Source: an uncultured Bacillota bacterium (GTDB lineage: Bacteria > Bacillota > Dethiobacteria > DTU022 > UBA8154). Taken from it: a stretch of DNA of 53,083 bases. The translations under genes and the position numbers were made by a program. The stretch covers positions 1 through 53,083 of the forward strand of contig CALJJZ010000007.1 in the NCBI GenBank assembly GCA_937973635.1, in the 5' to 3' direction. Shown here piece by piece: positions 21,069 through 38,350 of the stretch; position 1 is the stretch's first letter; each line of letters begins with the position of its first letter. Under the pieces are notes generated by a model. It saw only the letters and a list, made by a program, of their open reading frames with translations, was not told where the DNA came from and did no database searches.

Positions 21069-22772
21069 CTAAAAGGGTATAGCTTTGTCCAGTTCTTCGT
21101 CCGGAATATCAAATACGCTGTTGGAGGGGGGGAGGGGTTCTGTCAGCATAAACCGGGGCAAACGGTTGTCCGTCTTGCTGAAGCCCGCTGCAGCGTTGAA
21201 TTTTTTCTCCATAGCCAGGGTATCAATACCGATGGAAAACAATTTATTTACGTCCCATGCTCCGCCAAAGCGCGAGGCAAGCATATCCACCAGGTGCCCG
21301 ATATTGGCCGGGTCGGCGGTGCAAAAGCCGGAGAAGATGCACAGCCCTAGGCTGTCGAAAGTGGCCATACCTACCTGCAGGTTGGTAGAGACCTCTACCT
21401 GCCCTTCTTTTTGCGTGGGCGCCACATTCTGCTCCAGAATAGAGTTGCCGCAGGTGTGGTCTGCGCCCATGGGAGAGGTGGCATAGGTAACGCCCGTTCC
21501 TTTTAAAGCGCGGGGGTCGTAGGCGGCAATGGACTGCCCTTTAACCGTGGGGATACGCTGGACTCCCAGGTATTTCCCTGTTGCCGCTGTCCCCTGGCCC
21601 AGCACTTTGCCGAATTCTGTGCCGTCGCTCATTTCCTGAAGTAGCGCCATGACTCCCTTTTCGTCACCGAAGGGGATCCTGCCCGCTTCCATACAGACGG
21701 CGATGGTGGTGCCCGTTTCCATGGTGTCGAGGCCAAAGTCATCGCAGAGCCGGTCGATGCGGGCAATGGCGTCTAAGGAAGCAATGCCGCAGTTGGCCCC
21801 GTTCAGGGCGATGGTTTCGTACTCAAAGCCGGAAGTGAGGTACTCTCCCTTTTCGTCTTTATAAATATTAGAGCAGCCAATGGGACAGCCCGGCTGGCAG
21901 GCATGGCCGTTTTTGCCGCCCCTTTCCGCTTGGAGCTGGGCCAGCCTTTCGCCGCTGATTGCTTCCGCCCCTTCAAAGCTGCCGCTGGAGAAATTGCGGG
22001 TGGGAAGGGCTCCCATGGCGTTGACGATATTGATCAGCACAGCCGTGCCCAGGGCCGGCATGGCCTCGCCGGAGACAGGATGGGCTTTAATCCCTTGGAC
22101 ATAGCTTTTGACGGCGCTGTTGAACTTTTCCCTGTCGTGGTAGGTTACGACCGGCGCAGCGCCTGGCTCCAGCACGATGGCCTTGAGCCCCTTGGAGCCC
22201 ATTACCGCCCCCAAGCCGCCCCGTGCCGCTGCCCGGCTGGGGTAGCCCTCCGTGTTGGTAATCTGCACGGTGGAGTTGCGGTAGCCCCGCTCGCCTGCCC
22301 CGCCGATGCTGATAACACCGATTTTTTCCCCAAAAGCCTGCTGCAGGCGTGCCACAAGTTCATAATTGTTCAGGCCGGCATAGGCCTCACCGGGCAGCAG
22401 CTGGGCTGTTCCGCTGCCGACTTTCAGGATAAAACACTTGCCCGGTGCAGCATTTTCCACAATAATGGCCCTGAGCCCCAGCCGCGACATCATCCACCCT
22501 GCAGTCCCCCCTGCATTGGCCTCCTTGATGGTGCCGGTGAGGGGGCTTTTGCCTCCTACGGAAAGGCGTCCTGAGGTGGGGGCGCTGGTTCCGGCTAAAA
22601 GGCCGGTACAGATAATGAGCTTATTTTGCGGGCCCAGGGGGTCGCACGCGGGGTCTACCTCCTCGGTGAGGATTTTGGCGATCAGGCCGCGGCCGCCGTA
22701 TAGTTTATATGCTTCACCCGGCTCCTCAAACTTAACAGTCTGCGCAGACATATCCACCCTTAAAAATTTCAA
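21069..22772 (-). CDS. Aldehyde:ferredoxin oxidoreductase, tungsten type
   Basis: The 567-residue protein belongs to the AOR family, which oxidises aldehydes to acids with a tungsten-bis-pterin cofactor and a [4Fe-4S] cluster, passing electrons to ferredoxin. It has the N-terminal LYGGRGLIAKIL and the cofactor segments SGRLSVGGKSPLTGTIKEAN and SRAAARGGLGAVMGSKGLKA. The cluster Cys residues are in HACQPGCPIGCSN (near residue 290) with a later Cys in LGLCIFSGFC. The start is TTG at 22772 with AAGGAGGAGG about 8 bases upstream. It is followed by moaD and preceded by alanine dehydrogenase and an aminotransferase. Confidence 0.93.
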   Translation of the reverse strand: MKFLRVDMSAQTVKFEEPGEAYKLYGGRGLIAKILTEEVDPACDPLGPQNKLIICTGLLAGTSAPTSGRLSVGGKSPLTGTIKEANAGGTAGWMMSRLGLRAIIVENAAPGKCFILKVGSGTAQLLPGEAYAGLNNYELVARLQQAFGEKIGVISIGGAGERGYRNSTVQITNTEGYPSRAAARGGLGAVMGSKGLKAIVLEPGAAPVVTYHDREKFNSAVKSYVQGIKAHPVSGEAMPALGTAVLINIVNAMGALPTRNFSSGSFEGAEAISGERLAQLQAERGGKNGHACQPGCPIGCSNIYKDEKGEYLTSGFEYETIALNGANCGIASLDAIARIDRLCDDFGLDTMETGTTIAVCMEAGRIPFGDEKGVMALLQEMSDGTEFGKVLGQGTAATGKYLGVQRIPTVKGQSIAAYDPRALKGTGVTYATSPMGADHTCGNSILEQNVAPTQKEGQVEVSTNLQVGMATFDSLGLCIFSGFCTADPANIGHLVDMLASRFGGAWDVNKLFSIGIDTLAMEKKFNAAAGFSKTDNRLPRFMLTEPLPPSNSVFDIPDEELDKAIPF

Positions 22773-32083: not shown

Positions 32084-32494
32084 TTACTGGCGGCTCCATT
32101 CGAGGATCTTCTGCCACTGGGCGTCGCTGACGGGCAGGACGGAAAGGCGGGGCAGGCGTACCAGTTCCCAGTCTGGGAAGAGGCCGCTTTCTTTGATTTC
32201 TTTTAGGGTCACGGGACGGGCCAGAGGCCGGCGGGCGGCGACGCGAAATACCAGGGTGGCGGGGCCGCCCGCTTCGCCGGGCAGAGTATAGGGGGCGGCC
32301 GTTATCTCCCCGATTCCCCTGATAGCCCGTTCGCTGCCCGTGTGGTAGATAAAGACGGCATCTCCGCGCTGCATGCGCCTGATCTGGCGCAGCGCCGCCG
32401 GGGCCCTGACTCCGTCCCAGACAGTTTCCCCTTCTCTCACGAGGTCTTCCCAGGCATATTCTGCTGCCTCTGTTTTTAACAACCAGCGGGCCAA
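32084..32494 (-). CDS. EVE-domain protein
   Basis: The 136-residue single-domain protein shows EVE/PUA-like motifs: MARWLLKTEAAEYAWEDLVREG, VWDGVRAPAALRQIRRMQRGDAVFIYHTGSERAIRGIGEI, and the C-terminal VRLPRLSVLPVSD. EVE domains bind modified bases in RNA or DNA. The start is TTG at 32494 with AAGGAGGTCA about 8 bases upstream. It lies 36 bases after the ArsC-like selenoprotein gene and probably shares its transcript. Confidence 0.88.
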   Translation of the reverse strand: MARWLLKTEAAEYAWEDLVREGETVWDGVRAPAALRQIRRMQRGDAVFIYHTGSERAIRGIGEITAAPYTLPGEAGGPATLVFRVAARRPLARPVTLKEIKESGLFPDWELVRLPRLSVLPVSDAQWQKILEWSRQ

Positions 32495-32530: not shown

Positions 32531-32881
32531 TTACTGCTGCAGCAGGGCCTCCAGCTGCTCCGGTTTGAAGCCGACCACCAGTTTTTCTCCGTCGGTGAAC
32601 AGGGGCCTAAACATGATTTGGGGCTGCTCCTGCAGCAGTCTGGCCGCTTCTGTATCGGAGAGGCTCTCCGGCGCCACGTCCAGGTTTTTCAGGGCCTTGC
32701 TTTTTGGGTTGATCAGCTCCGCCACAGAAAGGCCGCCCAGTTTGGCCAGGTGTAAAAGCTCTGCTTCCGTGGGGGGTTCTTTTAATATATTCCTGTACAC
32801 ATAAGCCACTTGTTTGGCTGAAAGCCACGCTTTTGCCTTTTGACAGGTGGTTCAAGTGGGGAAACAGTAAAATTCCAGCAT
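32531..32881 (-). CDS. ArsC/Spx-family thiol oxidoreductase, selenoprotein with in-frame TGA
   Basis: Reading through one TGA (32854-32852) gives a 116-residue protein of normal length for the YffB/YusI branch of the ArsC/Spx thioredoxin-fold family. It begins MLEFYCFPT, then the TGA residue, then TTCQKAKAWLSAKQV, and ends with FRPLFTDGEKLVVGFKPEQLE. The TGA replaces exactly the first Cys of the CxxC active site, giving U-T-T-C with selenocysteine at position 10. The ATG at 32881 is preceded by AAGGCGGT. A hairpin of the bacterial SECIS type follows the TGA. Without read-through, only a start at 32809 is left, which loses the active site. Function beyond thiol redox chemistry is unknown. Confidence 0.88.
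32816..32837 (-). promoter_or_regulatory. Bacterial SECIS hairpin
   Basis: On the minus strand the mRNA can fold GGC-A-AAAGC-GUG-GCUUU-CA-GCC: a 5-pair upper stem, a small internal loop and a 3-pair lower stem. The apical loop is GUG. Its first base lies 24 nt after the TGA (23 nt between), inside the 16-37 nt window described for bacterial SECIS elements, with G at the first loop position as expected for SelB recognition. Confidence 0.8.
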
Positions 32882-32910
32882 TGTTACTTACCGCCTTTTC
32901 AGGTTTTTCC

Positions 32911-35902: not shown

Positions 35903-36415
35903 GTGTGTAAAGTAGAGGAAAGGGAGGCCATACTGGAAACAGTCAGCGCGGCACTGGCCAAATTCGAGGCCAAACGGGAAAATTTGATCCCGCTGCTCCA
36001 GGAGGTGCAGGGGCAGCTGGGGTACTTGCCGCCGGCGGCCATGGCGCAGATCGCCGCCTATCTGGGTGTGCCGGCCGTAGAGGTGTACGGCCCTGCCACT
36101 TTTTATAATGATTTTCGCCTGCACCCTCCCGGGGAACATCAGATTAAAGTTTGTATGGGCACAGCCTGCTATATGATCGGGGGACAGATCGCCCTCGATT
36201 CTTTTGAACGGCGTCTGGGGATCAAAGTGGGAAAGACTACGCCGGACCGCAAGTTCAGCCTGGATCAGGTGGCCTGTGTGGGCTGCTGCGCCCTGGCCCC
36301 GGTAGTGGTGGTGGACAATTACGTGGAGGGCCGCGTTACGCCCACCCGCGTGGACGGGATCATCCTTTCTTTTGCAGAAGGGAACGACAAAGGCAAGGAA
36401 AAGAAAGGGACTTAA
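35903..36415 (+). CDS. NADH dehydrogenase/hydrogenase diaphorase subunit, NuoE/HoxE-like [2Fe-2S] protein
   Basis: The 170-residue protein has the thioredoxin-like [2Fe-2S] fold of NuoE, HoxE and HndA: a helical N-terminal domain (NLIPLLQEVQGQLGYLPPAA), PATFYNDFRLHPPG, and four cluster Cys residues in KVCMGTACYMIGG and VACVGCCALAPVVVVDN. Start GTG at 35903 follows GAAGGGGA. It is 18 bases before the NuoF-like gene and begins a diaphorase operon. Confidence 0.93.
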   Translation: MCKVEEREAILETVSAALAKFEAKRENLIPLLQEVQGQLGYLPPAAMAQIAAYLGVPAVEVYGPATFYNDFRLHPPGEHQIKVCMGTACYMIGGQIALDSFERRLGIKVGKTTPDRKFSLDQVACVGCCALAPVVVVDNYVEGRVTPTRVDGIILSFAEGNDKGKEKKGT

Positions 36416-36433
36416 AAAAGGAGACGGAGAACA

Positions 36434-38350
36434 ATGCGCAACCTTTCTGCAAGTGAAACGGCCTACCGGCGGTTGCGGCAGCAGGCGGAAGCAAAACTTG
36501 CCCCCCTTAAGGATAAGCCTTTGATCTGGATAGGTACGGCTACCTGCGGCAAGGCGGCCGGGGCCATAGAGGTACGGGAAGCCTTTAAAGAGGAGCTGGC
36601 TAAAAAGGGGGTAGAGGCCCGTGTCCTGGAGGCGGGCTGTATGGGGCATTGCTACGCCGAGCCGCTGGCGGTAATCGCCAAACCCGGTTTTCCGGCGATC
36701 TGTTACGGTAAAGTGGACGAAGGCCTGGTTAAACGCCTCGTGGATGATTTTTTGCTCCACGATGATCCCTGCTACGAGTTTGCCCTGGTGGCCCTGGAGA
36801 CGAACGATTTTTTCCCCACCTTCAGCGATTTTCCCCGGGGCGTTTATGAGGAGAAAATAATCCTGGAAGATTGTGGTTTCATTGACCCCGAAGATATAGA
36901 CCACTACATTGCCCGGGACGGTTATGTCGCCCTGGCGGAGGTGCTTGGTACAAAGACCCCGCAGCAGGTCTTGGCGGAAATTAAAGCAGCCAACCTGCGC
37001 GGCCGGGGCGGTGCCGGTTTTCCTGCGGGAGTGAAATGGGAAGCGGTGGCGGTACAGACGGAAAAAACCCGCTATGTGATCTGCAACGCCGACGAGGGAG
37101 ATCCCGGGGCCTTTATGGACCGCAGCATCTTGGAATCTAATCCCCATCTTGTGCTGGAGGGGATGCTTATCTGCGCCTACGCGGTAGCGGCGCAACGGGG
37201 TTACCTGTATATTCGTTCCGAATACCCCCAGGCCATCCGCCGTGTGCGCACGGCACTGGAGCAGGCACGGCAGCGGGGGCTGCTGGGTTCTTCCATCCTG
37301 GGCGGTAATTTTAATTTTGATCTGGGAATTTTTGCCGGGGCGGGCGCCTTTGTCTGCGGTGAGGGCACGGCCCTTGTCAACTCCATGGAAGGGAAGCTGG
37401 GGCTCCCCGAACACCGTCCGCCGCGCCTTTCCACGGCGGGCTTGCGGGGCAAACCCACGGTTTTGAATAATGTTAAAACCTTTGCCTACGTCCCCTTGAT
37501 CCTGCGGCGGGGGGCGGACTGGTTCAAACAGACGGGGACACCGGGCAGCCCCGGCACGGCTGTTTTCGCCATGGCGGGCAAAGTGGCCAATCCGGGCCTG
37601 GCGGAAGTGCCCATGGGGACAACTCTGCGGCAGCTTATTTTTGAAGTGGGCCAGGGGCTCGCGGGGGGAAAACAATTTAAAGCGGTGCAGATCGGCGGCC
37701 CCTCCGGCGGCTGCCTGCCCGAAGCGGCCTTGGATCTCCCCATCGATTTCGATTCCCTGCAGGAAGCGGGGGCGATTATGGGTTCGGGCGGCGTGGTCGT
37801 CTTGGACGAGGACGATTGTATGGTGCGCATAGCCCACTATTTCCTGAAATTTACCCAGCACGAGTCCTGCGGTAAATGCACCTTTTGCCGCCTGGGGACC
37901 AAACAGATGCTGGATATACTCGGCGCCATCACCAGGGGGGAGGGGACCCTGGCAGATCTGGAGACGCTGCGCGAGCTGGCGGAAGACGTAAAAGCCGGCT
38001 CCCTTTGCAACCTGGGCGGCACTGCTCCCAACCCCGTCCTGACCACACTGAAGTACTTTTATGACGAATACAGGGCGCACATCGAGGGAAAATGCTGCCC
38101 CGCCCTCATGTGCCCTGACTTGATTGCCTATTATATTGAGCCCCTAAAATGCAGCAAGCTCTGCAGCGCCTGCGTGGGGAGCTGCCCGGTCGAGGCCGTT
38201 TACACGCGGGAAGACGGGCTTAAAGCCATTGATCAGGAAAAGTGTGTAAAATGCGACAACTGTTTGAAAGCCTGCCCTGTGGAATACAACGCTGTGGTCA
38301 AGCTTTCGCCGCCGTCGCTGCTCCAGGAAAAGGAGGGGAGGGGCAGATGA
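36434..38350 (+). CDS. NADH-binding flavoprotein subunit, NuoF/HoxF/HydB-like
   Basis: The 638-residue protein is the NADH- and FMN-binding electron entry subunit. An N-terminal thioredoxin-like region (residues about 30-115) keeps three Cys (TATCGKAAGA; AGCMGHC) where four are usual. The core has the NADH/FMN motifs LRGRGGAGFPAGVKW and NADEGDPGAFMDRSI, the [4Fe-4S] set ESCGKCTFCRLG, and a C-terminal two-cluster ferredoxin domain (CSKLCSACVGSCPV; CVKCDNCLKACPV). This layout is found in bifurcating hydrogenases and formate dehydrogenases. It overlaps the next gene by 4 bases. Confidence 0.94.
   Translation: MRNLSASETAYRRLRQQAEAKLAPLKDKPLIWIGTATCGKAAGAIEVREAFKEELAKKGVEARVLEAGCMGHCYAEPLAVIAKPGFPAICYGKVDEGLVKRLVDDFLLHDDPCYEFALVALETNDFFPTFSDFPRGVYEEKIILEDCGFIDPEDIDHYIARDGYVALAEVLGTKTPQQVLAEIKAANLRGRGGAGFPAGVKWEAVAVQTEKTRYVICNADEGDPGAFMDRSILESNPHLVLEGMLICAYAVAAQRGYLYIRSEYPQAIRRVRTALEQARQRGLLGSSILGGNFNFDLGIFAGAGAFVCGEGTALVNSMEGKLGLPEHRPPRLSTAGLRGKPTVLNNVKTFAYVPLILRRGADWFKQTGTPGSPGTAVFAMAGKVANPGLAEVPMGTTLRQLIFEVGQGLAGGKQFKAVQIGGPSGGCLPEAALDLPIDFDSLQEAGAIMGSGGVVVLDEDDCMVRIAHYFLKFTQHESCGKCTFCRLGTKQMLDILGAITRGEGTLADLETLRELAEDVKAGSLCNLGGTAPNPVLTTLKYFYDEYRAHIEGKCCPALMCPDLIAYYIEPLKCSKLCSACVGSCPVEAVYTREDGLKAIDQEKCVKCDNCLKACPVEYNAVVKLSPPSLLQEKEGRGR

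Follow-up and report, generated by a model that had tools for sequence, protein, structure and literature searches.

The window analysed here, that is, the whole stretch of DNA under study, comprises 53,083 nt of contig CALJJZ010000007.1 (GCA_937973635.1) from an uncultured Bacillota bacterium of the UBA8154 lineage. On its minus strand, at positions 32531-32881, lies a gene for a Spx/ArsC-like protein, which spans 116 codons and a TAA stop when TGA is translated as selenocysteine (Sec). The leader at 32882-32905 (minus strand) contains a purine-rich, ribosome-binding-like stretch, AAAAGGCGG, visible in the sequence about 10 nt before the ATG. The frame 32881-32531 is interrupted by a single internal stop, the TGA at 32854-32852 (minus strand), and the read-through protein of 116 residues, MLEFYCFPT-U-TTCQKAKAWLS...ALLQQ*, would carry the active site U10-T-T-C13 together with an invariant C6. 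The codon of this third Cys is found at 32864-32866 (minus strand); the pattern C-x3-U-x2-C is invariant in the branch of relatives described below, and Spx has Thr at this position. When open reading frames were called without recoding, only 32809-32531 (92 aa) was returned, which is the truncated start that a sequence-only reading of this DNA had anticipated. Downstream of the TGA, at 32816-32837 (minus strand), a single-sequence fold gives a bSECIS-like hairpin, GGC-A-AAAGC-GUG-GCUUU-CA-GCC, with an upper stem of 5 bp, a GUG loop at 32828-32826 and an outer GGC/GCC stem.

The gene is followed by an EVE-domain gene at 32084-32494 (minus strand; PF01878, E 5e-33), which is not part of the recoding and which neighbour clustering also places next to the gene in four near relatives. 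Further downstream are genes for an enoyl-CoA hydratase, an FMN-reductase-like and an RlmL-like protein, and upstream is a divergent M29-peptidase-like gene. These neighbours offer no clear hint of function. Elsewhere in the window we noted an aldehyde ferredoxin oxidoreductase gene (21069-22772, minus strand) and NuoE/NuoF-like genes (35903-38350), which fit an anaerobic, probably syntrophic lifestyle.

The predicted protein was compared with curated family models and with solved structures. It passed the Pfam ArsC model PF03960 (67.7 bits against a gathering threshold of 24, E 1e-18) and the NCBIfam model TIGR01617 for the broad Spx/MgsR subfamily (90.3 bits against a cut-off of 75.05). It aligned without gaps to B. 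subtilis Spx from the PDB over residues 1-114, with U10 on the redox-centre residue C10, so that the expectation of family-like sequence on both sides of a TGA replacing the first Cys of the CxxC motif was borne out. The AlphaFold2 model had a pLDDT of 94, and in a fold search with this model the best solved structures were Spx (TM 0.88, 1.7 A) and then ArsC-family proteins. The more specific models all missed the protein: the curated Spx model (87.1 vs 123 bits), the arsenate reductase model TIGR00014 (41.8 vs 106.05 bits) and the seleno-ArsC model NF041106 (28.8 vs 85 bits), the last of which found no genome over its cut-off among 298 relatives either. For this reason, and on the strength of these scores, the protein is described here as a broad ArsC-family member and is not filed under Spx, arsenate reductase or NF041106.

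When 150 related genomes were searched at the protein level, more than 30 orthologs with TGA at the same codon emerged, as was confirmed on the DNA, and extending the scan to about 85,000 species genomes brought in named members. They come from Syntrophomonadaceae, Syntrophomonas, Pelotomaculum and other Desulfotomaculaceae, Candidatus Syntrophopropionicum, Peptococcaceae, Desulfitobacteriaceae, Dethiobacter and one Atribacterota assembly; a scan of viral contigs gave no relatives. After removal of duplicates the branch held 57 distinct TGA sequences, the window included, and one Cys ortholog (L017, genome G085), in which the Sec codon is TGC. Sec relatives with as little as 36% identity still have undisturbed frames before and after the TGA, and the residues invariant in the branch include C6, U10, C13, N58, R92, P93 and F105. 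Because the same codon is TGA in so many distinct sequences, its presence in the window is not a matter of chance. A draft assembly with one internal stop might still suggest a sequencing error, with TGC or TGT as the true codon, or a pseudogene whose real product starts at 32809. We consider this to have next to no probability, given that many independent assemblies carry the exact TGA, that the relatives have no other disruption, and that both the flanking protein and the hairpin are conserved.

We placed the branch, made up of 58 Sec rows (among them the more distant L148) and one Cys row, in a tree of 99 proteins, where it groups with Spx/MgsR and separately from the Cys proteins of the YusI-like kind; owing to the short length of the protein, support is weak at many forks. 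The sequence-only reading had named the protein ArsC/Spx and proposed YffB/YusI homologues for comparison: a Cys is indeed found at position 10 in Spx, but the closest relatives proved to be Spx/MgsR and not YffB/YusI. Taken across the sequences compared, the branch uses selenocysteine almost exclusively and is distinct within the Spx/ArsC superfamily. L148 (G186) and L049 (G148) are more distant Sec members that belong to other families of the phylum; their genomes are near-complete, with 1 and 3 contigs, respectively. In L048 (G066:C237) a frameshift or an assembly error puts residues 1-13 out of frame, so that the Sec codon is not visible. Two UGA-containing members, L111 (match start 5001 of 6383) and L053 (370-729), fall inside the YusI-like (NTSG) Cys clade; their active sites are UTTC and, without the second Cys, USTV, respectively, and both have hairpin sequences of the GCCAAGG-UUGGC type downstream.

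A bacterial selenoprotein requires selA, selB, selC and selD, and their absence from the genome had been named in advance as a finding that would speak against recoding. All four are present. The genes selA (601 bits) and selB (380 bits) are adjacent on contig 27, which also carries the tRNA-Sec (75 bits), and selD (363 bits) is on contig 86. This selD (L140, G000:C86:21265-22194, minus strand) is itself a UGA-encoded selenoprotein, with the sequence SSSAG-U-AAKIG, and its hairpin, GGGCC-GGA-GGCCC, has the same layout as that of the Spx/ArsC-like gene. Among the relatives, a selB match at E<=1e-60 was absent from seven draft genomes with the gene or a gene fragment, one of which (G053) is 97% complete. 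Since selB was found in 124 of the 150 related genomes, its co-occurrence with the gene says little.

The loop of the window hairpin starts 23 nt after the UGA, and the stem has an A.C mismatch at pair 21-35. Folded alone, this hairpin was not significant (z -1.42), and the case for it therefore rests on the relatives, through conservation, covariation and codon bias. Two forms could be distinguished, both with loops of 3 nt in which G comes first; conserved guanosines in the apical loop are a feature of bacterial SECIS elements (PMC1088965, PMC2398784). Form I, with the sequence GCGAAAGC-GUG-GCUUUCG and 23 nt between UGA and loop, accounts for 53 sequences, in all of which the four innermost stem pairs form. 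In this form, pair 21-35 is G-C in 44 sequences, A-T in 7 and an A.C mismatch in the remaining 2, the window among them; between G-C and A-T, therefore, both sides of the stem changed together. Form II is found in the other 4 sequences (GCCAA-GGC-UUGGC, GCCAU-GGC-AUGGC and similar); here the spacing between UGA and loop is 20 nt, and one stem pair switches from A-T to T-A. The codons that make up the stem are also biased: Ala18 is GCG in 53/57 sequences, compared with 65/362 (18%) of the other Ala codons of the same genes and 13/35 in the Cys homologues, and Leu20 is CTT in 53/57, compared with 135/787 (17%) of the other Leu codons and 5/39 in the Cys homologues; these statistics ignore shared ancestry, and the identical synonymous codons are still kept in relatives with only about 40% protein identity. 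In the Cys ortholog L017 the stem is broken (AAAAC-GUG-GCUGU). As judged from this comparison, the hairpin is under clear RNA-level selection across the relatives. The sequence-only reading had placed a GUG-loop hairpin at the distance expected for a SECIS element, and this agrees with what we found. Altogether, the comparative evidence makes us highly confident that the gene encodes a genuine selenoprotein with Sec at position 10, where SelB and Sec-tRNA(Sec), directed by the hairpin 3' of the UGA, would insert it.

What would such a protein do? With a UxxC motif at the redox centre and, in 15 relatives, the peroxiredoxin gene described below just upstream, the selenium-dependent thiol oxidoreductase proposed earlier gains support, and a role as a selenol/thiol oxidoreductase is, with good though not full confidence, the most likely one. 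In such a reaction the U10 selenolate would attack an oxidised substrate and C13 would resolve the resulting selenenylsulfide; a further part, in redox chemistry or as a ligand, may fall to the invariant C6. The proximity to Spx raises another reading, in which the protein is a selenocysteine version of this regulator and oxidation would produce a U10-C13 selenenylsulfide that leads to binding of the RNA polymerase alpha C-terminal domain. Spx/MgsR are nearest in both the tree and the structure library, the TIGR01617 cut-off is passed, R92-P93 of Spx are kept in the branch, and position 60, which is Arg in Spx, is K or R in most members. Against this, Gly52, present in 6/6 Spx/MgsR proteins, occurs in only 3/58 sequences of the branch and is replaced by Ser in the window protein, which moreover ends at residue 116 and thus misses the Spx C-terminal tail (115-131); the Spx-specific models were missed as well (87 vs 123 bits). 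In Spx, Gly52 is required at the RNA polymerase, and the activation defect of the G52R variant was not rescued by promoter mutation (PMC2801614). A regulator of the Spx type thus seems unlikely to us.

An arsenate reductase with a selenocysteine nucleophile would fit the ArsC fold and family, but the TIGR00014 score stayed far below its cut-off of 106, no ars genes were seen among the window neighbours, and position 60 is K, R or G in the branch and so not always Arg. E. coli ArsC also has Arg at the equivalent position. Seleno-ArsC proteins have been predicted before (PMC1088965, PMC2398784); for the present protein we regard arsenate reduction as very improbable.

A possible substrate for the selenol/thiol oxidoreductase is suggested by the gene order in the relatives. 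In 15 of them, a gene for the selenocysteine peroxiredoxin PrxU lies directly upstream on the same strand, at a distance of 19-137 bp, and is sometimes preceded by a Fur/PerR-like gene (identified by eye). The PrxU-adjacent loci include L064, L068, L070, L071, L073, L075, L078, L080, L081, L083, L085, L089, L092 and L096. PrxU passes NF040737 (364.6 vs 270 bits) and is UGA-encoded, with the motif DFTFV-U-PTE. Typical 2-Cys peroxiredoxins carry their resolving Cys in VCPAGW, and PrxU has TPAGW or MPSGW at this site. Because the usual resolving Cys is replaced, PrxU probably depends on an external reductant; it is described as thioredoxin-dependent by NCBIfam. The co-operonic UxxC thioredoxin-fold protein would be a natural candidate for this reductant, and the layout of the operon suggests an electron relay for peroxide defence. 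PrxU was found in 25 of the 36 genomes that have the family and in 27 of the 114 that do not (p 1e-6, kinship not removed).

In the genome of the window itself, no PrxU was detected at E<=1e-30, and the Prx-type proteins have no internal stop; it does encode a Cys thioredoxin with an adjoining thioredoxin reductase (identified by eye). Since this genome is without PrxU, the partnership is not universal and other substrates must exist. Here the substrate would have to be another oxidised protein or a small thiol, while in many relatives the operon layout points to the co-encoded PrxU as the probable one. We put forward the PrxU partnership in the relatives tentatively. It is tempting to speculate further that the branch is dedicated to PrxU, as its reductase or as its resolving partner, in a two-selenoprotein peroxide-defence operon of syntrophic anaerobes, acting on other substrates where PrxU is missing; this may be so, with the balance somewhat against it.

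Standard gene callers truncate or miss this Spx/ArsC-like selenoprotein across a set of anaerobes that includes many syntrophs, and a family whose known roles are redox switching through Cys and the reduction of arsenate gains a branch in which Sec is the rule. The natural Cys form in G085 and the two alternative SECIS hairpins allow comparison, and the operon with PrxU, which is without the canonical resolving Cys, offers a directly testable selenium-to-selenium electron relay.

As a kind, the ArsC-type selenoprotein is already known. UxxS ArsC selenoproteins were reported in 2005 (PMC1088965), "ArsC-like" and "distant ArsC homolog" selenoproteins in two Deltaproteobacteria in 2006 (PMC1794560), UxxC proteins from marine metagenomes as "Arsenate reductase 2" (cd03032) in 2008 (PMC2398784), and ArsC-type selenoproteins under NF041106 in 2026 (PMC13188914). 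A literature search for a Spx-type selenoprotein returned only these ArsC entries; in it we did not find the branch, its almost complete reliance on Sec, the Cys6 shared by all its members, the pair of SECIS forms or the PrxU operon, with the proviso that the 2008 marine sequences may overlap. The arsenate reductase selenoprotein of the Sargasso Sea/GOS set (PMC1088965) shares the ArsC family and the Sec nucleophile; it has UxxS and belongs to TIGR00014, whereas the window protein has UxxC and falls short of that model. NF041106 and the GOS "Arsenate reductase 2" (PMC2398784, PMC13188914) are closer in kind, being ArsC-family selenoproteins with UxxC, and NF041106 is set apart from our protein by its score, while the branch may overlap the 2008 GOS sequences. 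PrxU (NF040737), likewise UGA-encoded and the apparent operon partner in the 15 relatives, is a different protein. With B. subtilis Spx (PDB 3gfk, 1z3e, 7f75) the window protein shares the thioredoxin-like ArsC fold, the position of C10-x-x-C13 and R92-P93; it differs in lacking Gly52 and the C-terminal tail, and in having Sec at position 10 and an invariant Cys6.
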